Below are positions 7,163-36,671 of a stretch of DNA of 64,000 nucleotides, in pieces (within the stretch, counting starts at the first letter, position 1; each line of letters opens with the position of its first letter). The position numbers were made by a program, and so were the translations under genes. Source of the DNA: Maribacter sp. MMG018 (lineage in GTDB: Bacteria > Bacteroidota > Bacteroidia > Flavobacteriales > Flavobacteriaceae); NCBI RefSeq assembly GCF_018100785.1, contig NZ_JAGJEC010000003.1:62001-126000 (forward strand), read 5' to 3'. The notes under the pieces are model-generated. The model worked only from the letters and a program-made list of their open reading frames with translations. It was not told the origin of the DNA and searched no databases.

Positions 7163-7164
7163 CC

Positions 7165-8298: not shown

Positions 8299-8336
8299 CC
8301 AAGGCCATATATTTTTTAACAACCTGTAAACTAAAA

Positions 8337-12800: not shown

Positions 12801-14532
12801 TTTCTCTTCTTCTAATTGGGATGTTCCCCAGACAATTACCATAACCGGTGCAGACGACTCTGAAGCAGATGGAAACCAGCCGTATACCATAGATATTTCC
12901 GTTGATGACTCTAGAAGTGATAGTAGTTACCATGGACTGTCCGTTGCCATAAATGGAACCAATATAGACGATGACGGTACCTGCAACGGCACCTTGGTGG
13001 ACGTGACCGATCCCGTAGGAAGCGGCGACATCACCTCAAGGGACGACTTCATACCCAAGGAGGACAGGTTCAAGGCATTCGACAACAGGAAGGAAAGGGG
13101 CGATTTCAGCAAATGGCTCGATGCCGGGGGAATACCCGGACCGGCCGACCCCAGTTGGATACAGATCGTAATGGAACAGCCAAAAAGGGTCGAGGCCATC
13201 GTGATCACCAGTGCCAACGACGAGATAGGAAGGGACCCCGAGGACTTCAGGCTCATGGGATCCAACGGAGGCGCGTTCACCGAACTGGGCAGCTGGAGCG
13301 CACAGCAGTTCGACCAGAGGTACCAATCAAGGACATTCGAGGTCGCCAACCCAGGAACATACGCACAGTACAGGCTCGAGATAACAAAGAACCGGGGCGA
13401 CCTGGAGATGACACAGCTCGCGGAGATCGAACTATTGGGGTGCGAGCCCTCCTCCAACGTGGAGATAGCGGTGACCGGTGTCGCCCTGTCCCCTACCGAA
13501 ATGGAAATGGAAATCGGCGATACCGTTCAGCTGACCGCCACCCTGTCGCCCGATAATGCCACAAATACCGAAATAACCTGGGAAAGCCAGGACAACGCCA
13601 TAGCGGAAGTGGACACCAACGGAAACGTTACCGCTCAGGCCACCGGTACCACCAACATTACCGTGACCACCGATGACGGGAACTTTACAGATACCGCAAC
13701 GGTCACCGTACGGGAACCCGTCGTGGACGACGGTACCTGCAACGGCACCTTGGTGGACGTGACCGACCCCGTGGGAAGCGGCGACATCACCTCAAGGGAC
13801 GACTTCATACCCAAGGAGGACAGGTTCAAGGCATTCGACAACAGGAAGGAAAGGAGCGATTTCAGCAAATGGCTCGATGCCGGGGGAATACCCGGACCGG
13901 CCGACCCCAGTTGGATACAGATCGTAATGGAACAGCCAAAAAGGGTCGAGGCCATCGTGATCACCAGTGCCAACGACGAGATAGGAAGGGACCCCGAGGA
14001 CTTCAGGCTCATGGGATCCAACGGAGGCGCGTTCACCGAACTGGGCAGCTGGAGCGCACAGCAGTTCGACCAGAGATACCAGTCAAGGACATTCGAGGTC
14101 GCCAACCCAGGAACATACGCACAGTACAGGCTCGAGATAACAAAAAACCGGGGCGACCTGGAGATGACACAGCTCGCGGAAATCGAACTATTGGGGTGCG
14201 ACCAAAATGAACCAAGTGCCGTTGGTCTATACTCTAAATTAGAATTCGACAATGTTTACCCTGAGAACGATAGCTTTATAATTGCACCGAACCCTGTAGG
14301 TGAAGCTAGAAATATCTCGCTTCAATTAACAAGTTCATTAACAAACAAAGAAGTGGCCGTTACGGTGTATAGTATGGAAGGAAAATTGGTTCATTCCTCT
14401 AAATTCATGAATAATGAAGGAATATCTGAACATTACATTCAACTGGATCGTAGCCTACCCCCGGGAATTTACATAATGGAGCTAAGAAACAATACGAATG
14501 AGAGGTATAGAAAAAAAATCATATTAAAATAG
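9856..14532 (+). CDS. secreted PQQ sugar dehydrogenase-diheme cytochrome c-lectin-discoidin T9SS fusion
   Basis: The 1558-residue protein starts with a hydrophobic export segment (residues 5-25). A GSDH/sorbosone-dehydrogenase beta-propeller covers about 45-450 (HRGGGLVFGNDGFLYLATGD). A diheme cytochrome c module of the SO2930 type covers about 480-785, with CIACH at 608-612, CAYCH at 689-693 and a possible Met ligand in IMMPPIAKN. A ricin-type beta-trefoil (about 787-925) and a Calx-beta-like domain (about 930-1035) follow. Next come two almost identical discoidin-like domains (1040-1197 and 1292-1449) around a Big2 Ig-like domain, then a T9SS type A tail (about 1475-1558, ending YRKKIILK). 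It should oxidise a sugar or alcohol outside the cell and pass electrons to its own hemes. Codon use changes abruptly to GC-rich in 12973-14205. A paralogue lies at 28610-34558. Confidence 0.85.
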   Translation: MRKTSWGIIFLLSCVYLYFGFGPLVVEPGLTNPEPVGAFLNGKFPDASASDLQYQPAFPNISFDSPLTFTSLPSSNKLVVGQRNGEIYWFENDNNVSQKNLLRNLSDEVGVVWDGGFLGLAVHPEFGQADKNYFYIYYTTKDNQGRDYPDAFISGFGCEREDYWGNFLILKRITVDPNTFISDSNDDLVMIKMRMFSSTHRGGGLVFGNDGFLYLATGDQSAYAKPQNITTNLDGGVLRIDVDQDPSKSHAPTRTFTEDGRFSDEISGIGYGIPNDNPFLSPDGSNFEEYYTIGHRNPHRMTKDRVTGDFYIGEIGESRHEEINKLEVGKNYGWPVYEGNYFRGTQCVDLLDNMPHKAPLLAFSRSEANALIGGYVYRGDNMPDYYGKYICADYGVGEEIWAVDTNTGDYEIITQFSPTNIMSFGEDNNGELYLLSQGDNVTLYKLGQESSLSGSMPPSLSSTEAFEDLENMEPSTGLVPYELIESFWSDGAQKKRWMAIPNNGTHNTAAEKISFSENGDWNFPVGTVLIKHFELPIDETDPNKTKKLETRFSIKASNGSFYFATYKWNEQETDAYLLETGLEEDIPIKKANGSTAFQKWTYPSNQDCIACHSPATGGTLGPRTRYLNSDYTYEKSGVTSNQLVTLSHLGILDEIIDDNKTQQYQTYKALNDNNASLDEKARSYLDLNCAYCHRPGSTGDRAQFDLRLFNDLQQTNLLTAGVNTPLGISGEKILYAGDADKSILYHRINSADPTIMMPPIAKNKVHGEAVQLIEDWINQMGSPSTPPNTGDYRIVNHTTGNTLQVSNAGQNDRANIAAGAYNELDNEHFALEDAGDGFYQFRALHSGRYIDVEMGNTAPDTNVWQYVGNSTDAQLWQILHAGNDSFYIVSKLSGYYLGENPDGNVAVLQNNDGNAIRWKFLPMGAVPDTGIALQTTAISTSEDGSADNVDINLTAAPVEDVVLLVAGSNNTDEYTISPSEITFSSSNWDVPQTITITGADDSEADGNQPYTIDISVDDSRSDSSYHGLSVAINGTNIDDDGTCNGTLVDVTDPVGSGDITSRDDFIPKEDRFKAFDNRKERGDFSKWLDAGGIPGPADPSWIQIVMEQPKRVEAIVITSANDEIGRDPEDFRLMGSNGGAFTELGSWSAQQFDQRYQSRTFEVANPGTYAQYRLEITKNRGDLEMTQLAEIELLGCEPSSNVEIAVTGVALSPTEMEMEIGDTVQLTATLSPDNATNTEITWESQDNAIAEVDTNGNVTAQATGTTNITVTTDDGNFTDTATVTVREPVVDDGTCNGTLVDVTDPVGSGDITSRDDFIPKEDRFKAFDNRKERSDFSKWLDAGGIPGPADPSWIQIVMEQPKRVEAIVITSANDEIGRDPEDFRLMGSNGGAFTELGSWSAQQFDQRYQSRTFEVANPGTYAQYRLEITKNRGDLEMTQLAEIELLGCDQNEPSAVGLYSKLEFDNVYPENDSFIIAPNPVGEARNISLQLTSSLTNKEVAVTVYSMEGKLVHSSKFMNNEGISEHYIQLDRSLPPGIYIMELRNNTNERYRKKIILK
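12973..13445 (+). repeat. 473-bp intragenic direct repeat, copy 1
   Basis: First copy of a discoidin-like domain cassette inside the secreted dehydrogenase gene. It begins GACGGTACCTGCAACGGCAC and ends at TTGGGGTGCGA. Compared base by base with the second copy 756 bases downstream it has about 7 mismatches in 473, only one of which changes an amino acid (Gly in place of Ser). It is in frame with copy 2. GC content is far above that of the surrounding genes. Confidence 0.95.
13729..14201 (+). repeat. 473-bp intragenic direct repeat, copy 2
   Basis: Second copy of the discoidin-like cassette, offset exactly 756 bases (252 codons) from the first. The 283 bases between the copies encode a Big2-type Ig-like domain and are also GC-rich. 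The synonymous differences (GAT/GAC, GTA/GTG, AGG/AGA, CAA/CAG, AAG/AAA, GAG/GAA) plus one Gly/Ser replacement indicate recent duplication or continuing gene conversion. Confidence 0.95.
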
Positions 14533-14726: not shown

Positions 14727-15584
14727 ATGAAGCGTAAATTAAGAGACCTTATTGTTTACATATTAACACGTACACTAGGCAGGTGGCTTGTATATCTAAA
14801 CCCTAAAAAAGCAACAGAATTAATAGAAAAAGGAATTACAAACCTAAGAAATACAAGTCGCTTAAATTGGAAAGAAAAATTAATGAGAAGGGCTATTCTA
14901 TATACGGCCAAGAAGAAAGAAGATGTAGAATCCTTAGAAAAATTTCATCGTAATTATTGGGCAAACCATGGACATGATTTTTTTGCTTCGACAGAGAATC
15001 GAATGAAAAATGATTATTTACCCAAATACAAAGCAACATTTGACATTCTTGAGAAAGAACTTTTAAAAGACCCTAAAAAGTACACCGCCATCGTAGAAAT
15101 TGGAACTGGAGATGGTAGTATTTTAAACTTTTTAAGTGAAAAGTTTCCTCAAATAAATAGAATGGTCGGTATTGATTTAAGTGAAATTCAAATTGAGAAG
15201 AACAAAATGAAATTTAAAGAAAACCCCAAATTGAAATTTGTTGCTACGGACGGTTTTGAGTGGGTGAAAGAAAACGGTTCAACAAATATGATTTTTGTAA
15301 CATTCAGAGGTGTATTGGAATATTTCACGCAACAACGATTACAAGATTTTTTTCACAAACTGAACAGTCTGGGAAAAACGACTTTTTTTGCCGTGGAGCC
15401 TAACGGACTTGACCATGACTTTAGTATAAACCCAAATTCTCAAATCTATGGTAATGAATGCGCTTTCTCCCATAATTATGTCAAACTTTTCCAAAATGCA
15501 GGATTTAGCATATGGCATCAATCAAAAAAAATTGAAGGCGAACACCCGGATATTACAAGTATTATCGGGGCGAAAAATTTTTAA
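14727..15584 (+). CDS. class I SAM-dependent methyltransferase
   Basis: The 285-residue protein has a class I methyltransferase core in its C-terminal two thirds: motif I IVEIGTGDGSILNFL, the acidic end of strand 2 in MVGIDLSEIQIEKNK, motif II region KFVATDGFEWV, and FRGVLEYFTQQRLQDFF after strand 4. The N-terminal 90 residues are basic and helical and may bind a membrane or partner. No substrate can be read from the sequence. It stands alone, with 194 and 271 non-coding bases on either side, directly upstream of and in the same direction as the NRPS-PKS genes, so it could be a tailoring enzyme. The gaps make operon membership uncertain. Confidence 0.8.
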   Translation: MKRKLRDLIVYILTRTLGRWLVYLNPKKATELIEKGITNLRNTSRLNWKEKLMRRAILYTAKKKEDVESLEKFHRNYWANHGHDFFASTENRMKNDYLPKYKATFDILEKELLKDPKKYTAIVEIGTGDGSILNFLSEKFPQINRMVGIDLSEIQIEKNKMKFKENPKLKFVATDGFEWVKENGSTNMIFVTFRGVLEYFTQQRLQDFFHKLNSLGKTTFFAVEPNGLDHDFSINPNSQIYGNECAFSHNYVKLFQNAGFSIWHQSKKIEGEHPDITSIIGAKNF

Positions 15585-15855: not shown

Positions 15856-18800
15856 ATGGACGCATCCCAAAAAAAATTATTAGAGCAATATAAAACTCTT
15901 AACGATACTTTTGTTTCCTACCCAGAGGCTCCTTTACACCACCTTGTGAGCAAGCAGGCCTTAATGAACCCTGAGCGTACGGCGATAGAGTTTCATGGAA
16001 AAAAAATAACTTTTCTGGAGTTTGACCAAAAATCCAATCAATTAGCAAACTATTTATTGTCGTTAGGAACAAAACCCGGTGACTTAATAGGAGTTTGTCT
16101 ACCACGTTCTGGAGACGTCTTGATTACCTTTATCGCAATAATGAAATGTGGTGCTACCTATGTGCCTTTAGATCCGGCGCATCCTTCCCATAGATTAGAG
16201 TTTATGTTATCTGATTCGGATGCCAAGTTTTTGATAACCACGACAGAATTATCTGAAATATTTTCTTCGGACCATAAAAAAATACTTAAAGATCAATCTA
16301 TTGAAAAAATAGAAGAATTCTCTAAGGATAATCCAAAAATAGAGGTTCCTATGGATACGTTGGTATATATGATATATACTTCCGGTTCTACAGGCCAACC
16401 CAAAGGGGTTCCTATTTCCCATAAAAATTTAGTTAATGTACTGTGCAGTATGATAGATGAGCCGGGCATTGCAGAAGAAGATAGGATACTAGCCATAAAT
16501 ATTTTCTCGTTTGACATGTGCGGTGTTGAAATATATGCTCCTTTGGTAAAAGGTGCCTGTATTGTCATGGCAGACAATGACATGGTATTGGACAATCATG
16601 TTCTGTTGAACATTATCATAAATGAAGAAATAACATTTATGCAAGCCACCCCTACAAGATGGCAGTTGATTCTAAATGCCGGATGGGAACAACGTGTAAA
16701 CTTAAAAGCACTTACTGGGGGTGAACCGATTTCAAAAAAACTAGCGAACGAACTATTGGATAGATGTGCTTCTGTATGGAATATGTACGGCCCAACGGAA
16801 ACCACCATATGGTCTTCATTAAAAAGAATAGAAAGGGACGATGAGATAATTACCGTAGGTAAATCAATAGCGAATACAGCGATATACATTCTTGGAAAAA
16901 ACGGGGAACTAGTACCATCCGGAACTATTGGTGAAATTGCCATTGCAGGTACAGGAACAGCTATAGGCTATTGGAAAAGACCCGATCTTACCCAAGAAAA
17001 GTTTGTTGAAAACACTTTTGAGCCGCAAAAAGGTAAAGTATTGTACAAAACCGGAGATCTAGGTAAAATTTTACCAAATGGAGAAATACAATGCTTAGGT
17101 CGAATAGACCAACAAGTAAAAGTTAGGGGGCACAGAATAGAACTGGGAGAAATAGAAGCTTTTATAGATAAGCTTCCGCATATTCAAAAATCTATTGTAG
17201 TCGTCAATACTTCCATGACAGGAGAACCCCAATTGGTCTCTTATATTAAGTCGGACAAGAAACTAAAGGACATGCCCGATTTTCACAAAAAAATCAGGGA
17301 AATGCTGCCAGATTACATGGTTCCTTCCTTTTATGTTCAGGTAGATGAATTCTCGAAAACCGCAAGTGGAAAAATTGATAGAAACGCCTTACCAGAACCA
17401 AAATATGAACGTCCGGATTATTTGGCTCCTTTCGTCAAACCTTCGACAAAATATCAAAAATTAATAGCCGAGGTATGGTTAGAAGTATTGAGAATACCTT
17501 CTATTGGTATAGATGACAACTTTTTTGAAATCGGAGGAACATCAATACTGGGACAAAAAGCGATAGTTATTTTACAGAAGAAGTTAAACACCTCTATTCC
17601 GATAACCAAGCTTTATCAATTTCCTACTATTCGAAAGCTCGCTGCCCATTTAGAAATTCCTAAGAAAAAGAATTCAACTAAAAAATCACAAAAAGGAAAA
17701 ACCGAAAAGAATCTTCAGAACCATAAAGATATTGCGGTTATTGGAATGGCAGGAAGGTTTCCTGGTGCCCAATCTGTTCAAGAACTGTGGGATGTACTTT
17801 TAGAAGGAAGAGAAACAACTTCATTTTTTACGGCCGAAGAAATAGACAAAAATATACCAGAGGCCATACGCAAAGACCCTTTATATGTTCCTGCCCGTGG
17901 AGTTGTGCCTTCTGCCAAAGAGTTTGATTCTAAATTTTTTGGCCTTAATCCTAGGCTGGCCCTTGCCATGGATCCACAACAACGTTTGTTTATGGAAATA
18001 TCTTGGGAGGTTTTAGAACAGACAGGTTACCTACCCAGACATTATGACGGAAGTGTGGGCGTATATGCCGGTTGCGGTTACAATACGTATTACATAAACA
18101 ATGTTATACCGAACAATGACCTATTAGATCAAGTAGGTGAGTTTGTAGCCACTACCGTAAACGACAAAGATTACATAGCTACTAGAACCGCATATCACTT
18201 AAATTTAAAGGGTCCTGCCATTAGTGTCCATTCAGCTTGCTCCACTTCGTTACTTGCGATAGCAGAGGCTACAGAAGCTTTAAGAACAGGACAATGTGAT
18301 GTTGCCCTGGCCGGTGCCGCCAGTGTAACGTCTCCAATGAACAGTGGACATTTATACCAAGAAGGAGCTATAAAAACACCGACAGGCCATTGCTGTCCAT
18401 TTGACGAAAACGGTAAAGGAACGGTTTTTAGCGACGGTGCCGGAGTGGTATTATTAAAAACCTTGGAAGATGCCGAAAGGGACGGTGATACCATTTACGG
18501 AGTTATAAAAGGAATAGGACTAAGCAACGATGGCGGAGAAAAAGGAAGCTTTACCGCACCAAGTGCAGAAGGACAATCACAGGCCATTATCAATGCTTTG
18601 GACGATGCTCAAATATCTCCTTCGGAAATAAGCTATGTAGAGGCACACGGAACCGCTACTCCGGTTGGAGACCCTATTGAAATAGAAGGTCTTGAAATGG
18701 CTTTTGGTGAACAAGAAAAGAAAAATTTCTGTGCTGTGGGTTCTATAAAAAGTAATATGGGACACCTTACCTCAGCGGCTGGGGTTGCCGGTTTTATAAA

Positions 18801-21800
18801 GACAATATTGGCAATGTACCACAAACAAATTCCTGCTTCTTTGGGGTACTCAAAACCAAACCCACTGATAGATTTTGAAAATAATCCATTTTTTGTAAAT
18901 AATGTTTTAAGAAATTGGGATGTTGAAGGAAAAAGGAAGGCAGGCATCAGTTCTTTCGGTGTCGGGGGCACAAATGTACATGTGGTTGTTGAAGAATATG
19001 AAAATAAAACAAAAACTAGCGACGAAGGAAGACCGGTACAACTGCTTACATGGTCGGCCAAGTCACAAAAAAGCTTAGATGGTTATCAAAAAGCACTGGG
19101 CGACCATATAGACAAAGCAGCTACTCCCCTAGCCGATATAGCCTATTCGCTCAATGTTACAAGAGACATCTTTAACAATAGAAGCTTTGTAGTAGCTGGT
19201 CAATTAACCGAGGCCAGCGAAAAACTATTATCTGAAAATAGTAAGGACGTAAAGAGTAACTCTTTAAGGACGATTCCAAGCGAACTAGGATTTCTATTTC
19301 CCGGCCAAGGATCACAATACCTGCAAATGGGAAAAGAACTCTATGAAAATGAGTCAGTATTTAAAGAGGCTGTAGATACATGTGCCGACATTTTACTGAA
19401 CGAGTTTCAACTAGATATAAGAAACGTAATTTTTCCGGAAACAAATAACACAGAATCCGAAGAAAGATTAGAAGAAAGATTAAAAGATACGAAGTACACA
19501 CAGCCGGCATTGTTCGTTATCGAATATGCCCTATCACAACTTTGGTTAAGCTGGTCTATTAAACCTACCTTTTTATGCGGACACAGTATAGGTGAATTTG
19601 TTGCCGCCCACGTAGCGGGAGTATTTACCTTGACCGATGCATTACGTTTAATAACGGTAAGGGGCAAATTGGTAAGCGAGCTTCCCGGTGGAAGCATGCT
19701 TTCCGCTAGAACCTCTGTAGACAATTTATCGAAGATTATACCGGAGACACTTTCAATTGCCGCGGTAAATTCAGATCAATTATGCGTAATATCGGGTCCG
19801 GACAAGGAAATTGAAAATTTTGCACAACAACTAAAGGCAGATGGCATTGCCAATATGCTTTTAGCTACGAGCCATGCTTTTCATTCTACCATGATGGAAC
19901 CTATTTTGGATGTCTTTGAAAAAGAAGTCAGAAAAGTTTCTTTAAAAGCTCCGAATATACCTATGATCTCAACGGTAACAGGTACATGGTTAAGTGATAC
20001 GGATGCTACAAACCCAAAATATTGGACAGACCATCTACGCGATACCGTGCGTTTTTCAGACGCAATGGATACTATTTTAAACATGGAGGATGATGCCCTA
20101 CTTTTGGAAATAGGTCCAGGTCGTGCCCTTACGACATTGGCTCATCAGAAAAAAGGAGAGAAAACCGTAACTGCCATTTCCAGTTTGCCTTTACCCAAAA
20201 AGGGTGAAAACTCCTACCATGCGCTATTAACGGCATTGGGCCAATTGTGGTTAAAGGGTATAGAGCCGGATTGGAAAGAATTTTATAAAGACCAATCTAG
20301 ACAAAAAGTACTGTTACCATCTTACGTATATGACCGTAAGCCTTGTTGGATAGACCCTCCAGCTTCAGTGCCTCAATTTATCGACAATTCAACCATAGAA
20401 GAAAACATTATTCAACAAGAAAGTCCTGTAGAGACTAAGATCAATCAAAGTATTACGAATATGAGAAAAGAGAATATCCTTCAAAAAATTTCAGAAATAA
20501 TTTTAAAGACTTCCGGTATAGAACTTGAAGCAGGGGATACCACTTATAACTTTTTAGAACTTGGCCTAGATTCTTTAGTGCTAACCCAAATGGCCACTAC
20601 TTGCAAGAGAGAGTTTGATACGGCCATTACTTTTAGGCAACTTAGTGATGAGTTGAATACACCAGAGCTCTTGGCAAATTATCTTGATGAAGTTTTACCT
20701 GAGGAAAGTTTTGCCCCTGAACCTGCACAACCAATAAGCATCCCGGTGCAGCAAGCAGTAAACAATACTTCTCCGACACCTGTTCCCCAGTCCATTCCGC
20801 AATCTACGGTGACAACAGGGAACCATTATATCAACAATACAGATAATACTGCAGTAAGCCTTATTGCCCAACAACTTCAATTATTAGGAAAGCAATTAGA
20901 TTTACTTCAAGGGAACGGAACAATGCAAAATAGCCCTGTTCAAAATCAACCAGTTGCCCCTGTTACTCCCAATACAGTTCAAAATAATGGAAGTTTTAAA
21001 GCTCCTTTGACTTCTAGTACAACAACGTCAAATGATTCTTTGTCCGAAGAAGAGAAAAAAGAATTAAAAAAACCTTTTGGAGCTTCTCCGAAGATTGAAA
21101 AACAGCCCACCGAGATTACTCCCGAACACCAAGCATTTTTAGAAAAACTTATAAAACGTTATAACAAAAAAACAGCTTCGAGTAAGGCCTATTCGCAAAA
21201 ACATCGCTCTTATATGGCCGACCCTAGGGTAGTTTCCGGATTTAAACCGGCAACCAAAGAATTGGTTTACCCTATTGTTATCGAAAGATCATCGGGCAAT
21301 CGTTTGTGGGATTTGGACGGCAATGAGTACATTGACGCCCTTAATGGTTTTGGTGCCGGTCTATTTGGTCACCAACCAGATTTCATAAAAGAAGTTTTGC
21401 ACAAACAAGTAGACCTTGGTTTCGAAGTAGGCCCACAACACCCACTTGCAGGTGAAGTATGTAAATTGTTATGTGAATTTACCGGCCATGATCGTGCAGC
21501 CCTTTGTAATACAGGTTCTGAAGCTGTACTGGGTGCAGTGCGTATTGCAAGAACAGTTACCGGACGTTCACTAATTGTCTCTTTCGCAGGTTCTTACCAT
21601 GGTATCAATGACGAAGCCTTGGTACGAGGTTCCAAAAAATTAAAAACTTTTCCTGCTGCAGCAGGAATTTTGTCAGATTCCGTACAAAATGTATTGGTAT
21701 TGGAGTATGGAACAGAGGAAAGTTTAAGAATCATTAAAGAAAGGGCAAATGAAATAGCTGCGGTCTTAGTAGAGCCCGTACAAAGTAGAAGACCGGAATT

Positions 21801-22623
21801 TCAACCAATAGAATTTCTTAAAAAAGTGAGAGAGGTTACCACGGAATCGGAAACCGTTCTAATTTTTGATGAAATAATTACAGGCTTTAGAACACATCCA
21901 GGAGGAGCACAGGCACTTTTTGGCATCAAAGCGGATATTGCAACCTATGGTAAAGTTATTGGTGGAGGTATCTCTATCGGGGCAATTTTAGGAAAAAGAC
22001 AATATATGGATGCCCTTGATGGCGGGTTCTGGCAATATGGAGACGATTCTTTCCCAGAAGTAGGTGTTACCTATTTTGCTGGAACATTTGTACGTCACCC
22101 CTTAGCACTGGCCACTACCAAAGCTTCTTTAAATTTCATGAAAGAAAAAGGTCCGGAGCTTCAAAAAGGACTTTCTGAAATGACCGAAGGATTGGCCATT
22201 GAATTGAACAAGGAGTTTACTAAACGAAAACTACCTATTCAAGTCAATTATTACGCTTCTTTATGGAGACTTAAAATAATGGAGGATATTCCTTATTCCG
22301 AATTGCTATTCGTATTATTACGAGAAAAAGGAATTCATATTATGGATGGTTTCCCATGTTATATGACCATAGCGTATACACAAGAAGATATAAGAAAAAT
22401 TATTGATACCATCTTAGAGAGTATCGATGAACTTATTGAAGTAGGCATCTTTAAATTGGAAACGAACGGTAGCGCTACCTCCAGTGGAAATAAGTCTTCT
22501 ATAAAATCATTGAACACACCGCCTGTAGAAGGCGCAAGACTTGGTATGGACGAGTCTGGAAATCCTGCATGGTTTGTTGAAGATCAAAAGAAAAATGGAT
22601 CGTACGTTAAATTTGACATTTAA
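15856..22623 (+). CDS. hybrid NRPS-PKS: A-PCP-KS-AT-ACP-aminotransferase
   Basis: The 2255-residue megasynthase starts without a condensation domain, so it is a loading-plus-extension protein. Order: adenylation (about 20-515; YTSGSTGQPKGVP near 174, MYGPTETT near 310, GKIDR near 506); PCP (GGTS, Ser563); ketosynthase (about 626-1050; SACSTS Cys795, His931, His970); malonyl-type acyltransferase (about 1140-1440; GHSIGE Ser1244); ACP (LGLDSL, Ser1573); a Pro/Gln-rich linker; and a class III PLP aminotransferase (about 1755-2195; YGKVIGGG Lys2033) of the kind in MycA/ItuA and McyE. There is no ketoreductase, dehydratase or methyltransferase. Expected chemistry: an aminoacyl starter is extended with malonate, and the beta-ketone is transaminated to a beta-amine on the carrier. 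The C-terminal tail (PPVEGARLGMDESGNPAWF) precedes the hand-over to the next protein. Confidence 0.93.
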   Translation: MDASQKKLLEQYKTLNDTFVSYPEAPLHHLVSKQALMNPERTAIEFHGKKITFLEFDQKSNQLANYLLSLGTKPGDLIGVCLPRSGDVLITFIAIMKCGATYVPLDPAHPSHRLEFMLSDSDAKFLITTTELSEIFSSDHKKILKDQSIEKIEEFSKDNPKIEVPMDTLVYMIYTSGSTGQPKGVPISHKNLVNVLCSMIDEPGIAEEDRILAINIFSFDMCGVEIYAPLVKGACIVMADNDMVLDNHVLLNIIINEEITFMQATPTRWQLILNAGWEQRVNLKALTGGEPISKKLANELLDRCASVWNMYGPTETTIWSSLKRIERDDEIITVGKSIANTAIYILGKNGELVPSGTIGEIAIAGTGTAIGYWKRPDLTQEKFVENTFEPQKGKVLYKTGDLGKILPNGEIQCLGRIDQQVKVRGHRIELGEIEAFIDKLPHIQKSIVVVNTSMTGEPQLVSYIKSDKKLKDMPDFHKKIREMLPDYMVPSFYVQVDEFSKTASGKIDRNALPEPKYERPDYLAPFVKPSTKYQKLIAEVWLEVLRIPSIGIDDNFFEIGGTSILGQKAIVILQKKLNTSIPITKLYQFPTIRKLAAHLEIPKKKNSTKKSQKGKTEKNLQNHKDIAVIGMAGRFPGAQSVQELWDVLLEGRETTSFFTAEEIDKNIPEAIRKDPLYVPARGVVPSAKEFDSKFFGLNPRLALAMDPQQRLFMEISWEVLEQTGYLPRHYDGSVGVYAGCGYNTYYINNVIPNNDLLDQVGEFVATTVNDKDYIATRTAYHLNLKGPAISVHSACSTSLLAIAEATEALRTGQCDVALAGAASVTSPMNSGHLYQEGAIKTPTGHCCPFDENGKGTVFSDGAGVVLLKTLEDAERDGDTIYGVIKGIGLSNDGGEKGSFTAPSAEGQSQAIINALDDAQISPSEISYVEAHGTATPVGDPIEIEGLEMAFGEQEKKNFCAVGSIKSNMGHLTSAAGVAGFIKTILAMYHKQIPASLGYSKPNPLIDFENNPFFVNNVLRNWDVEGKRKAGISSFGVGGTNVHVVVEEYENKTKTSDEGRPVQLLTWSAKSQKSLDGYQKALGDHIDKAATPLADIAYSLNVTRDIFNNRSFVVAGQLTEASEKLLSENSKDVKSNSLRTIPSELGFLFPGQGSQYLQMGKELYENESVFKEAVDTCADILLNEFQLDIRNVIFPETNNTESEERLEERLKDTKYTQPALFVIEYALSQLWLSWSIKPTFLCGHSIGEFVAAHVAGVFTLTDALRLITVRGKLVSELPGGSMLSARTSVDNLSKIIPETLSIAAVNSDQLCVISGPDKEIENFAQQLKADGIANMLLATSHAFHSTMMEPILDVFEKEVRKVSLKAPNIPMISTVTGTWLSDTDATNPKYWTDHLRDTVRFSDAMDTILNMEDDALLLEIGPGRALTTLAHQKKGEKTVTAISSLPLPKKGENSYHALLTALGQLWLKGIEPDWKEFYKDQSRQKVLLPSYVYDRKPCWIDPPASVPQFIDNSTIEENIIQQESPVETKINQSITNMRKENILQKISEIILKTSGIELEAGDTTYNFLELGLDSLVLTQMATTCKREFDTAITFRQLSDELNTPELLANYLDEVLPEESFAPEPAQPISIPVQQAVNNTSPTPVPQSIPQSTVTTGNHYINNTDNTAVSLIAQQLQLLGKQLDLLQGNGTMQNSPVQNQPVAPVTPNTVQNNGSFKAPLTSSTTTSNDSLSEEEKKELKKPFGASPKIEKQPTEITPEHQAFLEKLIKRYNKKTASSKAYSQKHRSYMADPRVVSGFKPATKELVYPIVIERSSGNRLWDLDGNEYIDALNGFGAGLFGHQPDFIKEVLHKQVDLGFEVGPQHPLAGEVCKLLCEFTGHDRAALCNTGSEAVLGAVRIARTVTGRSLIVSFAGSYHGINDEALVRGSKKLKTFPAAAGILSDSVQNVLVLEYGTEESLRIIKERANEIAAVLVEPVQSRRPEFQPIEFLKKVREVTTESETVLIFDEIITGFRTHPGGAQALFGIKADIATYGKVIGGGISIGAILGKRQYMDALDGGFWQYGDDSFPEVGVTYFAGTFVRHPLALATTKASLNFMKEKGPELQKGLSEMTEGLAIELNKEFTKRKLPIQVNYYASLWRLKIMEDIPYSELLFVLLREKGIHIMDGFPCYMTIAYTQEDIRKIIDTILESIDELIEVGIFKLETNGSATSSGNKSSIKSLNTPPVEGARLGMDESGNPAWFVEDQKKNGSYVKFDI

Positions 22624-22696
22624 AAGGTAACCCTAATCAAATAACCGAATTACTTTGATAGCATAAATCTAACGAAGTAAAACAATAAACAATATA

Positions 22697-25600
22697 ATGC
22701 AAGACATAGTTGCCTTTAATCCGTTTGTCGGACCTGCAATCGAAAAAATAATTCCAATAGTACAAGCGCAAGCTGAAGTATGGATTGCCTGTAAGTTGGG
22801 GGGAGAAGATGCAAACCGAGCTTATAATGAATCTGTTTCCCTTATCTTAAAGGGCCATTTGAATAAAGCTGGACTAGAGGATGCCATACAGAAGTTAGTT
22901 CAACGTCATGAAGCATTAAGATCTACCTTTAGTAGGGACGGGCGTTTTATGACCGTTTTTGAGGAGCTACCCATTACACCTGTGTACAAAGATTTCTCGC
23001 AACTTGACGAAGCGGAAAAAAATAGGTCCGTAAAAGGTTATTTGTCTGAAGATGCCCATTATATTTTCGATTTGGTAGAAGGGCCATTATTTAAGATAGG
23101 TTTATTGAAATTATCGGAACTGGAACACCAATTAGTGCTCACGGCCCATCATATTATATGTGATGGTTGGTCTACAGGTATTATGCTCGAAGAAATAGGA
23201 AGTTTCTATTCAGCCTATACATCAGGAAAAACACCAGATGTTCCAGAACCCGAAATGTATAGCTCCTATGCCGAAGAAGAACAAGAGTTTATTCAAAGTA
23301 AAGACTATATTGTTACAGAACAATATTGGTTAAAACAATATGAAAAATCGGTTCCGACCGTAACACTTCCTACCGATTTTCCAAGGCCTCAATTAAGAAC
23401 TTTTAAAAGTAATCGCTTAGATTTTGAAATTGACAGTGATTTAGTTGCCGACCTAAAAAAAGTTGGAATAAAATCAGGAGCCAGTTTTGTAGTTACCTTG
23501 ATGGCCGCTTTTGAAGTGTTTCTTTACAGACAAACAGGACAAGATGACCTAGTTTTGGGGCTACCGGCCGCAGGCCAATCCCTGAGCGGAAAAACCCAAT
23601 TGATAGGACACTGTGTAAATCTGTTACCATTACGAACTAAAATTGCCGCAAATATTCCTTTCAACGAATATTTAAAAACCAGAAAAATTGCATTGTTCGA
23701 TGCCTATGAACACCAGCAATTTAGTTTTGGCCAATTACTTCAAAAACTTGCCATTGCAAGAGACCCTTCTCGGGTGCCATTGGTACCGATCATGTTTAAT
23801 ATAGACATGGGTATGGCCAATGCGGTTTCATTTGATGGATTGGACTATAAGCTAAAGAGCAACCCTAGGGCATATGAAGCTTTTGAGCTTTTTCTAAACG
23901 CGACCGGAACAGAAGATGAACTCATTCTAGAATGGGCCTATAACTCTGCTTTGTTCTCCTCTTCTACCATAGAGCAAATGATGGTTTCTTTTAAAGAAGT
24001 ACTACACGGTATTGTTGCCAACCCAAGTATCGAAATAGGAAATATCGTAAAGATAGATACTAAACCTTATACGGACCTGAACAACACTGTGGTTTCTTAT
24101 CCACAACTGGCATTACATGAACTTTTAGCCGAACAAGCTCAAAATACACCTCTAAAACAAGCTATAAAATTTGGCGATTCTAACATTTCTTACGAAAATT
24201 TAGAAAAGCAAGGTCACCAATTGGCACATTATTTTATAGAACAAGGGGTGGCGCCTGGCGATTATGTTGCCGTCTCATTACCGCGTTCAATTGAACTTGT
24301 GGTTACGCTTATCGCCATAATGGAATGTGGTGCCGCCTACCTACCTTTAGACCCTAACTACCCTAGCAAACGATTAGAGTTTATGTTAGAGGATTCTGAA
24401 GCCAAATATTTGATAACGACCAAAAACCTATCCTCTTCCTTAAAGTCCAATTCCAAGACTTTACTTTTAGAAGACATCTTTAAAGGCCTATCAAAATATC
24501 CCAATACATCTCCTAATATAAAAGTTGACAATAGTGAAGTAGTTTATTTGCTGTACACTTCCGGCTCTACCGGAAAACCAAAGGGAGTTCCTGTAACGCA
24601 CAAGAATTTGGTCAATTTTCTGTATAGCATGTTACAAGAGCCCGGTATCAAAGAAACCGACAAACTACTCTCCATTACAACGATATCCTTTGATATTGCA
24701 GGTTTAGAACTTTTTGTTCCCTTATTAAAAGGTGCTTCATTGGTATTGACGGATGAAGAAACCGCCAGGGACAGCCGTCTTTTGTTAGAGGTCATGGAAA
24801 ATGAGTCTATAACAATGATGCAGGCCACTCCAACAACTTGGCAAATGCTTTTAGATGCTGGCTGGAAAAAACCCTTGCCCATAAAAGCCTTGTGTGGAGG
24901 TGAAGCATTACCAATAGTATTGGCGAAAAATATATTGGAAAGAGTAGATGAGTTATGGAACATGTACGGCCCTACCGAAACCACAGTTTGGTCCGCCGTT
25001 AAGCAAATTTCAAAATCAGACGACCTGATAACCGTTGGAAAACCTATTGCCAATACTCAAATTTATATTGTAAATGAGCACAATCAGCTGGTAGAACCCG
25101 GTAAAACGGGTGAGCTGTGCATTGCCGGAGATGGTGTCGCCAAAGGATATTGGAAAAGACAAGACCTAACAGCTGAAAAATTCACAAAAAATCCTTTTGA
25201 ATCAGATTTAGGCCCTATTCTTTATCATACGGGTGATTTGGCCAAATTACTTCCCTCCGGAGAAGTTCAATGTTTGGGTCGTATAGATCAACAAATAAAA
25301 ATCAGGGGTCATCGTATTGAGCTCGGTGAAATTGAACAAGCCCTAGATTCTTTAGATGGCGTGCAATCATCCGTAGTATTGTTGAATGGAGATAATTTGG
25401 TCGCAAACCTAATTCCTGCACATATAGGAGATACAAGCACCGAACAAATAAACAGTTGGAAAGAAACTTTAAGAGAACAACTGCCCCCTCATATGGTCCC
25501 CCAGCAGTTTAATTTGGTAAAAGAATTTCCAACAACATTAAATGGCAAGATTGACAGAAAAGAATTACTTAATCTTTTATCTAAAAAAAATACTGCTACA

Positions 25601-26674
25601 AGTTTTGTCGACCCTAGCACAAAATCAGAAAAAATTATCGCCTCCATATGGCAAGAATGTCTTGGTATAGATAAAATAAATGTTAATAGTGACTTTTTTG
25701 AACTCGGAGGACATTCATTGATAGCCGTGAGGGTAATGACACAACTAGAAAAAGAAACAGGCAATAGATTGCCGTTAGTTGCCTTGTTGAAAAACCCAAC
25801 GGTTAAAAAATTGGCAGCATATATGGATAGTGAATTCATTACCTGGGATTCATTGGTACCATTAAAACCAGAAGGAAACAAACCTCCTTTATATATAGTA
25901 CACGGAGCTCATCACAATGTTTTTATATTTAATGACCTGGCCAAGCAATTAGACGATGACCAACCCGTCTACGCACTTCAACCAAAAGGTCTTAACGGCG
26001 TTTCGGAACCACATGACTCTATTGATGAAATGGCGGCACATTATGTCTCTGAGATTATAGCATCAAACCCTGAAGGACCTTATGCCCTCGCCGGATTTTC
26101 GTTAGGGGGAATCGTAGCTTTTGAAATGGCCAGACAATTAAGGGAACAAGGCAAAGAAGTAAAAATATTAGCTCTCTTTGATAGCTACGTCTTTCCGTAC
26201 TATTACTATAAAAACCCTTTCAAGAAAAAAGTTGTATCGTTCCTATATCTTTTAGGAAGGGTAACTTTTATCTTCTTGAATATGTTCAGTAGTGCGAAAA
26301 ATTTTAAAAGAAGGATCCAACTGATAAAGCTCCATGTTTCCGGATTATTCCTACGAATGAAAATCGGTAAGGAAAAACAACATGAAATGCAACATAACCG
26401 TTCATTGAAAATGGATACGATGCATAACCAAGCCACTGATCGTTACACGATTGTTCCACAAGATATGGTAGTGGACCTCTTTAGGGCCAAACAGGATATT
26501 TATTTCGCGCATGATTATAATTTATTGGGGTGGAAAAATATAGCTAAAAAAGGCATACGTAAACATATGGTACCTGGTAACCATATTGATATGTTCTCGT
26601 CGCCTAACGTAGAAGTATTTGCAAATAGCCTACAAGACGTTTTGGACAATTATGATACAGAAAACAAAGAGTAG
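22697..26674 (+). CDS. NRPS terminal module: C-A-PCP-TE
   Basis: The 1325-residue protein is a complete terminal module. The condensation domain (about 1-450) has an intact HHIICDG (His151-His152, Asp156). The adenylation domain (about 475-965) has YTSGSTGKPKGVP near 620, MYGPTETT near 756 and GKIDR. The PCP carries GGHSL with Ser1007. The type I thioesterase (about 1055-1325) shows a GFSLGG nucleophile elbow (Ser1135) and GNHIDMF (His1296), with a long hydrophobic/basic lid between. It accepts the diamino-acyl chain from the upstream ACP, adds one amino acid, and releases the product. By-eye specificity residues D-I-L-Q-L-G-M-V-W-K are close to the glycine code D-I-L-Q-L-G-L-I-W-K. It begins 73 bases after the upstream gene and overlaps the PPTase gene. 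Confidence 0.93.
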   Translation: MQDIVAFNPFVGPAIEKIIPIVQAQAEVWIACKLGGEDANRAYNESVSLILKGHLNKAGLEDAIQKLVQRHEALRSTFSRDGRFMTVFEELPITPVYKDFSQLDEAEKNRSVKGYLSEDAHYIFDLVEGPLFKIGLLKLSELEHQLVLTAHHIICDGWSTGIMLEEIGSFYSAYTSGKTPDVPEPEMYSSYAEEEQEFIQSKDYIVTEQYWLKQYEKSVPTVTLPTDFPRPQLRTFKSNRLDFEIDSDLVADLKKVGIKSGASFVVTLMAAFEVFLYRQTGQDDLVLGLPAAGQSLSGKTQLIGHCVNLLPLRTKIAANIPFNEYLKTRKIALFDAYEHQQFSFGQLLQKLAIARDPSRVPLVPIMFNIDMGMANAVSFDGLDYKLKSNPRAYEAFELFLNATGTEDELILEWAYNSALFSSSTIEQMMVSFKEVLHGIVANPSIEIGNIVKIDTKPYTDLNNTVVSYPQLALHELLAEQAQNTPLKQAIKFGDSNISYENLEKQGHQLAHYFIEQGVAPGDYVAVSLPRSIELVVTLIAIMECGAAYLPLDPNYPSKRLEFMLEDSEAKYLITTKNLSSSLKSNSKTLLLEDIFKGLSKYPNTSPNIKVDNSEVVYLLYTSGSTGKPKGVPVTHKNLVNFLYSMLQEPGIKETDKLLSITTISFDIAGLELFVPLLKGASLVLTDEETARDSRLLLEVMENESITMMQATPTTWQMLLDAGWKKPLPIKALCGGEALPIVLAKNILERVDELWNMYGPTETTVWSAVKQISKSDDLITVGKPIANTQIYIVNEHNQLVEPGKTGELCIAGDGVAKGYWKRQDLTAEKFTKNPFESDLGPILYHTGDLAKLLPSGEVQCLGRIDQQIKIRGHRIELGEIEQALDSLDGVQSSVVLLNGDNLVANLIPAHIGDTSTEQINSWKETLREQLPPHMVPQQFNLVKEFPTTLNGKIDRKELLNLLSKKNTATSFVDPSTKSEKIIASIWQECLGIDKINVNSDFFELGGHSLIAVRVMTQLEKETGNRLPLVALLKNPTVKKLAAYMDSEFITWDSLVPLKPEGNKPPLYIVHGAHHNVFIFNDLAKQLDDDQPVYALQPKGLNGVSEPHDSIDEMAAHYVSEIIASNPEGPYALAGFSLGGIVAFEMARQLREQGKEVKILALFDSYVFPYYYYKNPFKKKVVSFLYLLGRVTFIFLNMFSSAKNFKRRIQLIKLHVSGLFLRMKIGKEKQHEMQHNRSLKMDTMHNQATDRYTIVPQDMVVDLFRAKQDIYFAHDYNLLGWKNIAKKGIRKHMVPGNHIDMFSSPNVEVFANSLQDVLDNYDTENKE

Positions 26675-27416
26675 GTTATTTTGTGGTACAGTAGAGACTC
26701 CTATTGATATTACTGCAACTATTTCTGAAAACAAATCTGAAATAAAGCTATTCAAAATAAAACTATCCGACTTTTACGATCGGAGCCCTGACCTGGAAAT
26801 CTACCTAGATAATGTAGAATTACAGCGTTCACAAAAGTACCATTTTAAAAAGGACAGGAATAGGTTTATTATATGCCGGTCATTCCTTAAACTCTTGTTG
26901 GCGGAATATACCAAATTAGACGTTTCACAGATACATATCGACATACACCAAAACAAAAAACCCTATCTCCGCTCCCATCCATCCGTGTTTTTCAATGTTT
27001 CCCATACCAATGATTATGGCTTAATTGCAATAGGAAAAAATGCTGTAGGAATAGACGTAGAAAAAATAGATAGGGAAAACGATTTTTCCGAAACTATACC
27101 TTATATATTTAATAAAAATGAAGTTCTGGCACTAGAAAGTGCCACGGACAAGCAGAAGTTGTTCTATAAATTTTGGACCCGCAAAGAAGCTATTGTAAAG
27201 GCAACCGGAAAAGGTATAGAGGACGATTTTAGACAAATTCCATCTTCCGAAGGGCACCACTTGGTTACATCTCAATTATTGGCGGATATTACCGATCTAA
27301 CGGTTTTAAGTTTTGATATTAACGAAGAATATATTGGAGCTGTAGCATACGAAGGAAATCATGAAGATATCGTTTCCCTGCAGTACTCACCACTTCCATC
27401 CATATCATCGTTTTAA
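26652..27416 (+). CDS. Sfp-type 4'-phosphopantetheinyl transferase
   Basis: The 254-residue enzyme transfers phosphopantetheine from CoA to the conserved serine of carrier proteins, here the two PCPs and one ACP of the neighbouring synthetases. The Sfp signature is clear: VGIDVEKID (Asp135 and the following Glu, metal-binding) and KFWTRKEAIVKATGKGI (Trp175, Lys178, Glu179). The ATG at 26652 is preferred over the in-frame TTG at 26619: it gives a 23-base overlap with the thioesterase end and the residues before it add nothing to the domain. The overlap implies translational coupling, so this PPTase is dedicated to the cluster. Confidence 0.92.
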   Translation: MIQKTKSRLFCGTVETPIDITATISENKSEIKLFKIKLSDFYDRSPDLEIYLDNVELQRSQKYHFKKDRNRFIICRSFLKLLLAEYTKLDVSQIHIDIHQNKKPYLRSHPSVFFNVSHTNDYGLIAIGKNAVGIDVEKIDRENDFSETIPYIFNKNEVLALESATDKQKLFYKFWTRKEAIVKATGKGIEDDFRQIPSSEGHHLVTSQLLADITDLTVLSFDINEEYIGAVAYEGNHEDIVSLQYSPLPSISSF

Positions 27417-27494: not shown

Positions 27495-28283
27495 TTATTT
27501 GGAATCAAATTGCATCTCTATTCTTTTAAAGAATTGGAGCGTGTTTTTAACCCAATATATCTTTAACATCCTATTAACCATCTTTACCCCTAGAATAAGT
27601 TTTATTCTCCTTCTTAACTTAGAAAAATAAGGTAACCAAGAACTATTAAAATGGTGAATAGCATAGGTATTCTTTGTAGTATGTATTTTTCCGGTTTCAA
27701 CATCTTTAGGACTAAAGTACTCACATGGAAACAAATAAAACTTGCTCTCATCATTAATTAACCGATCCACCATACATACCTCCTCTTTTGTCATTGGCAC
27801 AACCTGTCTTATCTTCTGTAGTTGCAACTTCATAATAGTAGGCATTATCACTATATCCATACTACCATCCTCTTTAACAAAGGATCTGTTGTCATAATAC
27901 TTTAGACAATGTGCCAACCATTCGGAATTTTTCTCGGCCCCAAATACGGCCGCCTCGATGATATTGGCATACTCCAGTCCGACAAAATAGGGCAAGTGTA
28001 ACAGGTTATCAAATTTCTTAAGAATTTGGACATCCGTATCTAGATAAATTCCACCATATTTATGCACTGCATACAACCTAACTATATCGCATGCGAAGGC
28101 ATATTTTTTCTTTTCGAAAGCTTCTTTTGCAAATGGCCATTCTTCCAAATTAAAACGTTCCGTATCCCAAAGCATGAATTCATAATCAGGCAAAAGCGAT
28201 TTCCAAGATGCTATATTTCTTTTTATGTCTAGTGGAAATTCCTCACCACTAAGCCAACAATAATGAATGATTTTAGGTATCAT
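27495..28283 (-). CDS. GT32-like glycosyltransferase (OCH1/capsular type)
   Basis: The 262-residue protein belongs to the glycosyltransferases containing a DXD sugar-binding motif (GT32, OCH1-like). It starts PKIIHYCWLSGEEFP, has the acceptor-side stretch SWKSLLPDYEFMLWD, and the diagnostic FACDIVRLYAVHKYGGIYL followed by DTD, whose acidic residues hold Mn and the nucleotide-sugar. Relatives transfer hexoses onto lipids, proteins or capsule. It is convergent with the PPTase gene across 78 bases and could in principle glycosylate the NRPS-PKS product or belong to the surface glycan machinery. The sequence does not decide. Confidence 0.8.
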   Translation of the reverse strand: MIPKIIHYCWLSGEEFPLDIKRNIASWKSLLPDYEFMLWDTERFNLEEWPFAKEAFEKKKYAFACDIVRLYAVHKYGGIYLDTDVQILKKFDNLLHLPYFVGLEYANIIEAAVFGAEKNSEWLAHCLKYYDNRSFVKEDGSMDIVIMPTIMKLQLQKIRQVVPMTKEEVCMVDRLINDESKFYLFPCEYFSPKDVETGKIHTTKNTYAIHHFNSSWLPYFSKLRRRIKLILGVKMVNRMLKIYWVKNTLQFFKRIEMQFDSK

Positions 28284-28609: not shown

Positions 28610-31600
28610 CTATTGAATAATTAAACGTTTTGAATCTGGCTCGTTGTTTTTGTACAATAACGTTACAACATATACTTCTTTCCTATAAAGACCTGTTGGT
28701 ATTCGCAATCTATCTCCTTGTAGAACCTCATCGACCATAAATTGTCTAATCAGCCTACCAGCGCTATCATGAATCATAACACCTACTATTTCATCCATAT
28801 CAAAATTATCTTTCATGATAACCTCTACATATTCGGTAGAAGGATTAGGTGCCAATATAAATTCAAAAGAGGGCTGTTCTAAAGTAACATTTTCTTCTGT
28901 TACTGTTATAGCTACGCTTGCTGTCGATTGTAACCCTGCATCATCCGTAACGGTTAAAATCACATCATAAGTGCCAATTACATCGAAGGTGTGTTCTGGA
29001 TTGGCATCAGAAGACGTTACACCGTCTCCAAAATCCCAATTATATGAAACAATGCCTACATCGTCTGTAGATTGATCACCGGTAAAGGTCACCAACAACG
29101 GTGCCTCACCTTCGGTGACATCTGCACTAACTATGGCTATAGGTGCTTCGTTATCTACAACAGTTATTGTAATAGAGTCACTATCCATTAACCCTGCACT
29201 ATCGGTAACGGTAAGTACTACCTCATAGACACCTGGCTGTGTATACGTATGTGCAGGACTATCTCCTGAATCACTTGTACCATCTCCAAAATCCCATGAA
29301 TAGGTAACTATACCAACATCATCCGTAGATTGGTCTCCATTGAAAATAATTTCTACCGGTGCCACCCCATTCTGAATATTTGCATCCGCTACCGCCACAG
29401 GCGCTTCATTAACATCCACTACCGTAATTGTAGTAGTTGCGGTATCTTCTAAACCTCCTTCATCTGTAACGGTAAGTACCACTTCATAGACACCTGGTGT
29501 TGTAAAAGTATGGGTAGGGCTTTGTTCTGTTGAACTGGCTCCATCGCCAAAATCCCACAAATACGATACAATACCCACATCGTCTGTAGACGAACTACCA
29601 TCAAAATTGACCTCTACCGGAGCTTCTCCTCCCGTATTGTCCGCTATTATACTAGCATAAGGTGCACCATTCACCGTAATGGTCAATGTAGAAGTATCCG
29701 ACAGTCCACCTGCATCGGTAACCGTTAATTCAACCTCATATTCTCCTGGATTGTTAAAGGTGTGTGAAGGGTTGATTTCCGAAGAAGTATTACCATCTCC
29801 AAAATTCCACAAATAACCTATGATACCGTTATCATCCGATGATTGATCTCCTGTAAAATTCACTGATAAAGGTGCATTTCCACTAGTAATATCTGAACTG
29901 GCTACAGATTCCGGTGTACCGTTCACTGTAATCAATATAGCATCACTAGTATCGGTATAACCGTCACCATCGGTAACCGTTAATGTAACCGCATATGGTC
30001 CACCTGTAGTAAAGTCATACTGAGGGTTCACCTCTGTTGAGGAATCTCCATTACCAAAATCCCAGAGGTAACCTACAATATCATTTTTATCATCAGTAGA
30101 GGCACTACCCGTAAATTGCACGGTCAATGGCTCATTTCCACTAATAATATCTGCACTGGCCACAGCTTCCGGTTCAAACCCTGTTGGTAAGAATTGCCAT
30201 TTATATAGATCACTGCCATCATCTGCATCTACAATTACATTGCCATCTGGTTCTACCGTTAAATAATAGCCGCCAGGGAAGACACTAATGATATAATAGC
30301 TACCATCGCCTGCCTCTACCACGTCCCATAACTGGGCGTCATTAAAATTACCGGTATACATCCAAACATTGGCTCCCGCATTTTGGTTTCCTCCTTGTAT
30401 ATCCAATACTAAATTGTCATGGATAGCCTTAATACTATAGAATCCATTTCCATCGGGTACCAGTTCAAAATGTTGATAGCTAGATGCATTATACACGTCT
30501 GTCACAAAGTTGGTATCTCTTGTAAGTCCACCATTCTCTGGCATAATACTTAGGGTGTTGCCAACATTTCGTAATCTATAGATTCCTGGTGGCGGTGCCC
30601 CATTGTCACCTCCATCATTATCATAATTGGTTCCTTTTATGTCGTCTCCCAATCCTATACCGTAATTAGTATCGGTGACAGGTGCTATAACCGAAACTTC
30701 TATGACTACCTCTTGGGCTCCATCCATATCTGCATCATCAACACCTGTAACCGTAACGGTCTGAGGTACATCCCAATTTGTTTGGTCAAAACTCAATTGC
30801 GTTGGTGATAAGGTCACCTCATCTGCACCTGATATAGCAGACACCTCAACTGTTACCGCAGCCGTAGGAGCTTCTGTAAGTACTACCGTAAAAGTATCGG
30901 TATCACCATCTTCGTCTGTATAAACACCATCCTTATTTATAACTAACCCGTAGTTTGACGAAGGATCTACTTCTTCAAACCTCCATTTAAAAATATCATC
31001 GCCATTCTCTACATCAACAATAATATTTCCGTTTGGCTCAATCGCTAAATAATGTCCTCCCATTTCACTAACAATAAAGTAAGTGCCATCTCCTGCATCT
31101 TCTAGACTCCATAATTGAGCCGGAGTTCCGTTAGCCGTATATTGCCATATGTTCGTACCTGGGTCTGAACTTCCCAACTCTACATCCATGGCTCTTCCAC
31201 TGTGCACGGCAATAAGGGAGTACAGCCCATTATCTTCATATACCAATTCAAATTGTTCATGTGCTTGGCCTTGGTACAACCCTTGTTCTATATTTGCCAT
31301 ATTATCGGTATCGGCATTAGCAACTTCTATAGACAAGCCACTGCTCTCATTAATAATTCTGTAAATACCCGGCGCAGGTGGCGCTCCTTCTCCGCCATCG
31401 TTATCTTCATTATAACCACCAAATACCTCTACAAAACCGGCATAGGCACTATCACTACGAGGCCCATCAACGGCAATCTCAATATCATAATATTGAACTC
31501 CGTCCACATCTGCATCATCTACTCCCGTGACCGTAACTGTTTGTGGAACATTCCAATTCGCGGGCGTAAAGGTCAGTTCTGTATCGGAAAGTGTAAATTC

Positions 31601-36650: not shown

Positions 36651-36671
36651 GGACCGATAAAAAACGATTGC

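Follow-up and report, generated by a model that had tools for sequence, protein, structure and literature searches.

In the MycA/ItuA modules of mycosubtilin and iturin synthesis, a fatty acid starter taken in via an acyl-AMP ligase domain is extended with malonate and then aminated by a fused class III aminotransferase (AMT). McyE and NdaF, which serve the Adda unit of microcystin and nodularin, also carry an AMT fused to a polyketide synthase (PKS), of the glutamate-1-semialdehyde (GSA) type, and their starter is an aryl polyketide. The diamine of guadinomine is made with an aminomalonyl extender. It is a vicinal diamine, and is important for activity (PMC6963908). Here we analyze a line of nonribosomal peptide synthetase (NRPS) and PKS genes at positions 15856-27416 of a 64,000-nucleotide stretch of Maribacter sp. 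MMG018 (contig NZ_JAGJEC010000003.1, positions 62,001 to 126,000; hereafter the window). The line consists of three intact open reading frames (ORFs) on the plus strand, with the order A-PCP-KS-AT-ACP-AMT, then C-A-PCP-TE, then an Sfp-type phosphopantetheinyl transferase (PPTase), where A is adenylation, PCP peptidyl carrier protein, KS ketosynthase, AT acyltransferase, ACP acyl carrier protein, C condensation and TE thioesterase. As judged from its sequence, it is a MycA-type aminating module in an amino-acid-starter variant, with transamination as the predicted activity. Across the family, a diamine-building chassis seems to stay fixed while the loading domain, whose starter code varies, is exchangeable. 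The genes and domains (aa, amino acids; PLP, pyridoxal phosphate) are the following.

15856-22623, plus strand: NRPS-PKS protein A-PCP-KS-AT-ACP-AMT, 2255 aa (ORF, Pfam, residue check)
15952-17391, plus strand: loading A domain (A1), aa 33-512, code DMVQLGMIWK, glycine-like (Pfam, pocket alignment)
17461-17652, plus strand: loading PCP, aa 536-599, Ser563 (Pfam, residue check)
17725-19035, plus strand: KS, aa 624-1060, C795/H931/H970 (Pfam, residue check)
19282-20295, plus strand: malonyl-type AT, aa 1143-1480, S1244, HAFH at 1340-1343 (Pfam, residue check)
20491-20730, plus strand: ACP, aa 1546-1625, Ser1573 (second PP-binding stretch, residue check)
21133-22440, plus strand: PLP aminotransferase (AMT), aa 1760-2195, K2033, clade residues N1830, H1862, W2137 and T2171 (Pfam, PDB match)
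22697-26674, plus strand: NRPS protein C-A-PCP-TE, 1325 aa (ORF, Pfam, residue check)
22742-24055, plus strand: C domain, aa 16-453, HHIICDG at 151-157 (Pfam, residue check)
24128-25549, plus strand: second A domain (A2), aa 478-951, code DILQLGMVWK, glycine-like (Pfam, pocket alignment)
25637-25822, plus strand: NRPS PCP, aa 981-1042, Ser1007 (Pfam, residue check)
25886-26611, plus strand: type I thioesterase, aa 1064-1305, S1135, presumed D1162, H1296 (Pfam, residue check)
26619-27416, plus strand: Sfp-type PPTase, 265 aa, its start overlapping the end of the NRPS gene (PF01648)

Pfam assigns AMP-binding, two PP-binding stretches, ketoacyl-synt N and C, Acyl_transf_1 and Aminotran_3 to the 2255-aa protein, the last fused behind the KS-AT-ACP module; Condensation, AMP-binding, PP-binding and Thioesterase to the 1325-aa protein; and ACPS to the 265-aa protein. 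Neither a ketoreductase nor any further beta-processing domain was reported in the Pfam scan of the line (E up to 0.001). The loading A domain scores 397.5 bits against TIGR01733 (cut-off 317.4), keeps the amino-binding Asp and is followed by a PCP. It is, by these marks, of the amino-acid type, so that the fatty or aryl acyl starter of the MycA and McyE modules would not apply here. An earlier account made from the letters alone, here the sequence-only reading, had described an intact three-gene line with its KS, AT, AMT, C (HHxxxDG) and TE residues in place, an amino acid starter and no ketoreductase. The ORFs and Pfam bear out the first point, the residues sit where they had been placed, and the TIGR01733 score and the Pfam scan agree with the other two.

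To place the line in a family, the AMT alignment was scanned against one genome per species (84,980 species). It returned at least 522 relatives, the best 80 of which were kept; all of these 80 bear Bacteroidota names. The sequence-only reading had proposed a search for the same six-domain order as a check on its novelty, and that order proved to be complete in 77 of the 80 loci (in one of the 77, L118, it is fused to its NRPS), the other three being cut by contig ends. An ORF of the partner NRPS cluster accompanies 75 of the 80 and one of the PPTase cluster 58. Residues were compared in 77 PKS proteins (the window and 76 loci) and 57 NRPS proteins, those outside 2000-2600 aa and 1250-1450 aa, respectively, being left out. 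The catalytic residues of KS, AT, AMT, C and TE are kept throughout except for the TE serine (56 of 57), and HAFH, the malonyl motif of AT domains, is present in all 77 PKS proteins. The best match of the KS-AT part is PDB 8xju, for which a literature look-up gave nothing and which is not used for any reading. Within the genus, 15 of 36 genomes (own included) carry a full-length homologue of the 2255-aa protein. One of these, in Maribacter thermophilus HT7-2, is 99% identical to that of the window, whose source genome assembly is 4.13 Mb. Two more homologues are cut or split at contig ends, and one is interrupted by stops: it lies at G010:C1:1340621-1347281, contains several stop codons and comes from an assembly that is 81% complete, so that it may be a pseudogene or an assembly error.

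Pocket codes were taken from an alignment of 197 A domains. In the window both A1 (DMVQLGMIWK) and A2 (DILQLGMVWK) look glycine-like. The A1 pocket segment is nearest to PDB entries 5u89 and 4zxh, which we take to activate glycine (aligned letters, read by eye, DILQLGLIW and DILQLGVVW). The related code DILQLGMIWK is reported for glycine-activating domains (PMC12283262). Calling a second A domain glycine-like when its code starts with DI or DM and has Gln in fourth and Gly in sixth place, we found such a code in 49 of the 68 loci with a downstream NRPS. In Rhizobium sp. SL42, where the logic is split into A-PCP, then KS-AT-ACP-AMT-C-A-PCP and then C-PCP-TE, the A domain after KS-AT-ACP-AMT also has a glycine-type code, in line with the reading of A2. 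The loading codes are far from uniform: 24 different nine-letter codes, some near variants of one another, occur among 77 loci. The commonest, DVQFMAQVV (27 of 77), presumably resembles the proline code, and we take others to resemble those of threonine, asparagine and aspartate.

This variation is concentrated in the loading domain. Between the window and the other species compared, A1 is 28-45% identical, KS 59-79% and AMT 66-79%; A1 of the window is 49% identical to its own A2, and no A1 from the other species compared exceeds 45%. For locus pairs with a KS identity of 60-75%, the loading A domains average 36-37% identity if their codes differ and 51-62% if they are the same; above 75% the gap shrinks, to 44 versus 69% and then to 74 versus 81% (different versus same code). 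The pattern fits an exchange of loading domains over a conserved KS-AT-ACP-AMT chassis. A recombination breakpoint within A1 is not claimed: identity falls across the whole A domain, and uneven conservation of A domains could mimic the shape. The Maribacter lines, which occur in three forms, bear on where the loading module came from. Besides the window form and a form with an extra C-A-PCP in the NRPS, there is a class III, in which the PKS has an extra N-terminal stretch of about 280 aa, the NRPS gene lies upstream and polysaccharide export genes lie downstream. In the two proteins scanned, Pfam matches it to just the C-terminal half of a condensation domain (positions 195-456 in L028 and 191-455 in G156), which suggests that the loading module of the line came from an ordinary C-A-PCP module. 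The other class III PKS proteins carry an extra stretch of similar length at the same place. With its fixed chassis and naturally varying loading domain, the family amounts to a ready experiment in adenylation-domain exchange.

The nearest PDB structure to the AMT is the MycA aminotransferase (388.6 bits), the best GSA aminomutase scoring 166.3 bits; GSA aminomutases are also matched in NCBIfam, below their cut-offs. Four positions distinguish the clade: H1862, W2137 and T2171 are found in 78 of 78 sequences and N1830 in 76 of 78, with all four present in the window, while 10 other PKS-fused AMTs mostly have M, S, F and S there. These residues may reflect the gamma amine of the substrate, but they are missing from other AMTs that have an A domain upstream, so we use them as a clade marker and not as a mechanism. 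H1862 does not stand up as a marker of aminoacyl starters: the His is lacking in L142 and L139, each with an A domain upstream, and Rhizobium sp. SL42 has Thr.

From the observed domain order, intact residues, conservation and glycine-like codes we infer the following chemical steps, product and mode of release. The PPTase would prime the carrier domains, and A1 would load a small amino acid, most likely glycine, onto the first PCP. The KS would join it to AT-loaded malonyl, giving 4-amino-3-oxobutanoyl-ACP, and the fused PLP domain, drawing on an external amino donor, would transaminate the ketone at C3; the resulting 3,4-diaminobutanoyl-ACP would be a vicinal diamine. This chain would then be coupled by the C domain to glycine loaded by A2, and the TE would free 3,4-diaminobutanoyl-glycine (C6H13N3O3, [M+H]+ 176.103) or a cyclised form (158.092), to which the methyltransferase beside the line (below) may add a methyl group ([M+H]+ 190.119). 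We regard 3,4-diaminobutanoyl-glycine, or its cyclised or methylated form, as the probable product. For a proline-type relative such as Robiginitalea aurantiaca (L064), a mass of 216.134 would be expected.

Two other fates of the intermediate have to be considered. First, the AMT might act as an aminomutase like its distant relative HemL, moving the C4 amino group to C3 via a bound diamine and leaving an aldehyde or ketone at C4. The reaction of HemL passes through 4,5-diaminovalerate, and the glycine-derived intermediate shares the H2N-CH2-CO-CH2 head of 5-aminolevulinate; the matches to GSA aminomutases and the divergence of the clade residues from other PKS-fused AMTs point the same way. 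However, the MycA enzyme is by far the closest solved relative, and the same AMT clade serves the proline-like starters, whose secondary gamma amine cannot pass through PLP aldimine exchange, which makes mutation impossible there and argues for transamination. Aminomutation is thus highly unlikely. Secondly, the AMT might be bypassed and the 4-amino-3-oxo intermediate cyclise to a pyrrolidine-2,4-dione. Five-membered ring closure of such thioesters is plausible on general grounds, but the PLP-site residues K2033, D2005, Y1914 and S1888 are invariant in all 77 PKS proteins, which indicates that the domain is in use, and the C-A-PCP-TE partner is conserved as well. We consider this bypass extremely improbable.

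As to the transaminated, glycine-based product, several observations weigh against it. Two pocket positions of A1 do not agree with DILQLGMIWK, which leaves room for alanine or another small residue as its substrate, and the A1 code DMVQLGMIWK was found elsewhere only in the M. thermophilus assembly. A clear glycine-like code is missing from the second A domain in 19 of the 68 loci. The class III lines of Maribacter, which have the NRPS upstream and stand outside that count, have DAMWLGIVCK in 10 of 10 loci, and M. orientalis, which with the window's line makes up class I of Maribacter, has DIFEFTLIWK in its second A domain. Finally, because the clade residues differ from those of the 10 other PKS-fused AMTs, the regiochemistry of this AMT need not equal that of MycA.

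Beyond this choice of loci, an AMT match with E up to 1e-100 turned up in 18 of 395 Bacteroidota genomes drawn evenly; 13 of the 18, the source genome among them, score above 780 bits, and the layout was read in one of the other 12 strong matches, L146, where it is fused to C-A-PCP-TE. With 18 of 395 genomes matching, the family is scattered and not general among Bacteroidota. A single condensation domain (E up to 1e-10) was found in 25 of 48 genomes carrying the line; it lies in the adjacent NRPS in 23 of these, and in an NRPS about 14 and 30 kb off in G173 and G186. A function carried by one product class may accordingly be common to many Bacteroidota from different families. Plasmid relatives, among 20 matches listed of 634, include those of Spirosoma linguale (48% identical), Variovorax (41-44%) and rhizobia (40-42%). 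Counted by similarity clusters with one representative scanned per cluster, cupin/JmjC hydroxylase-like ORFs adjoin 14 of the 80 loci and CAAX-protease-like ORFs 17. In L091, L098, L107 and other Larkinella and Pedobacter loci the second A domain is enlarged by about 400 inserted aa, which might be a built-in methyltransferase.

Two genes beside the line were missed by the sequence-only reading.

14727-15584, plus strand: class I S-adenosylmethionine (SAM) methyltransferase, 285 aa, probable tailoring enzyme (Pfam Methyltransf_25)
27495-28283, minus strand: DXD glycosyltransferase, convergent, a possible but unproven member (Pfam; adjoins the line in Maribacter classes I and II only)

The methyltransferase family is present in 28 of the 80 named loci and in 12 of the 15 Maribacter lines able to show it, the window included (L038 and L039, whose stretches begin within the PKS, stand outside the 15); it was not seen in L030, L032 and L037. 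Relatives of 43-91% identity adjoin or sit within lines of other Maribacter species, and the gene is therefore counted into the set. A PDB search bearing on its target returned generic methyltransferases only (best E 1.5e-05).

The surroundings of the line raise the question of function. Among the matches listed, 21 of the 48 genomes have a Wza or Bac_transf gene no more than 50 kb from the line; site counts in which neighbours were not merged give an expectation of 7.6 at most. Among other NRPS loci in the same genomes the figure is 2 of 23 (Fisher p 0.003; in a rougher count 2 of 16, p 0.03; hand-assigned). Distances and locus lists were assigned by hand, many contigs are short and the genomes do not count as independent samples. 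Four genomes have two lines each, of which the nearer copy was counted; by line the figure is 21 of 52. The pseudopeptide might not be secreted as such and instead decorate the exopolysaccharide or lipopolysaccharide of the neighbouring genes. Class III lines of Maribacter lead into Wza-Wzc-Wzy-Wzx, the homologue in Rhizobium sp. SL42 lies between polysaccharide genes, the window has a sugar-transfer ATP-grasp, four GT1 and a Bac_transf gene at 610-8298, and no transporter was recognised among the window genes adjoining the line. Yet 27 of the 48 genomes have no listed site within 50 kb, the distances are mostly 10-50 kb and not operonic, the TE suggests free release, and polysaccharide loci are variable islands, in which acquired clusters often settle. 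The association exceeds chance and may only mark such islands, and decoration seems very doubtful. Still less probable is the wider proposal that lines scattered across Bacteroidota, often the sole NRPS found in a genome, make diamino pseudopeptides that are not released but built into surface polysaccharide, with loading swaps varying the surface chemistry of strains.

Another proposal is that the product serves as a ligand of copper or another metal, as it would unite a vicinal diamine, an amide nitrogen and a carboxylate in one small molecule. The plasmid homologues of Variovorax WDL1 and RA8 (L121, L124) adjoin copper oxidase, cupredoxin and TolC genes, and that of Spirosoma linguale pSLIN02 (L122) adjoins a multicopper oxidase and a copper ATPase. 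However, of the 48 genomes just one (G190) has a Cu-oxidase_3 gene within 50 kb of the line, and in 20 of the 48 none was found (E up to 1e-10). A copper metallophore is therefore rejected as the general role of the family, and a metal ligand as the product is a long shot.

Elsewhere in the window, three large GSDH-domain proteins flank the line (9856-14532; 28610-34558, minus strand; 36648-40037); the first two have ricin-type lectin and cytochrome c-like domains, and a Por secretion tail is found at the end of the first and the third. The polysaccharide genes extend over 610-9443 and include, besides the ATP-grasp, GT1 and Bac_transf genes, one for a FemAB/GNAT-like protein. A GH3 glycosidase fused to a beta-lactamase-family domain is encoded at 43701-46610 on the minus strand.

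According to surveys of clusters in Bacteroidetes and Flavobacteriaceae, matches to known clusters exist for few cluster families (PMC9248904, PMC10734526), and the latter mentions groups of PKS/NRPS hybrids confined to genera such as Winogradskyella. A described product for such a line was not found in the open-access literature; cephabacin, considered as a precedent for an amino-acid starter with amination, is not claimed as one, its side-chain logic not being described in the literature found. The line is intact, conserved and uncharacterised; it is not confined to this genome, and its layout is not new. That it might be an unusual flavobacterial one-off is not supported: the six-domain order and its C-A-PCP-TE partner recur across Bacteroidota, and the layout was tabulated in 2013 (PMC3870968). 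The observation itself is confirmed and its interpretation partly supported. A 3,4-diamino acid linked to a further amino acid remains the natural prediction from an amino-acid A domain, a malonyl AT, no ketoreductase and a MycA-like AMT, the chemistry being a matter of prediction throughout; the refinements are that both A domains look glycine-like, that the methyltransferase is part of the set and that it is the loading domain that varies.

Of the systems compared, the entry closest in layout is Pedobacter heparinus C6XWU5, listed among PLP domains as A-CP-KS-AT-CP-PLP1 with the predicted product string Nrp-Mal-Gly-Pk and no actual product (PMC3870968, section 7 and Table 2); it has the same domain order and a GSA-type Aminotran_3 domain, a likeness drawn from the table entry and not from direct sequence. 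Salinisphaera F7QBN5 and Thiorhodococcus G2E5C9 have A-CP-KS-AT-CP-PLP1 within larger proteins (predicted string Gly-Mal-Nrp for the first; Table 2 of the same paper). Unlike the line, they are fused to further C-containing modules and are not from Bacteroidota, and the table lists no product. The guadinomine synthetase differs in using an aminomalonyl extender in place of a fused AMT acting on an aminoacyl starter. McyE/NdaF resembles the line in its PKS-fused, GSA-type AMT and differs in its starter. The MycA/ItuA module resembles the line by its AMT, as the structural match indicates; in contrast to it, the line starts from an amino-acid A domain, so its product would be a 3,4-diamino acid. 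Such an amino-acid-fed, beta-aminating PKS module would constitute a compact source of 3,4-diamino acids in nature, a group that is uncommon and has metal-binding potential.

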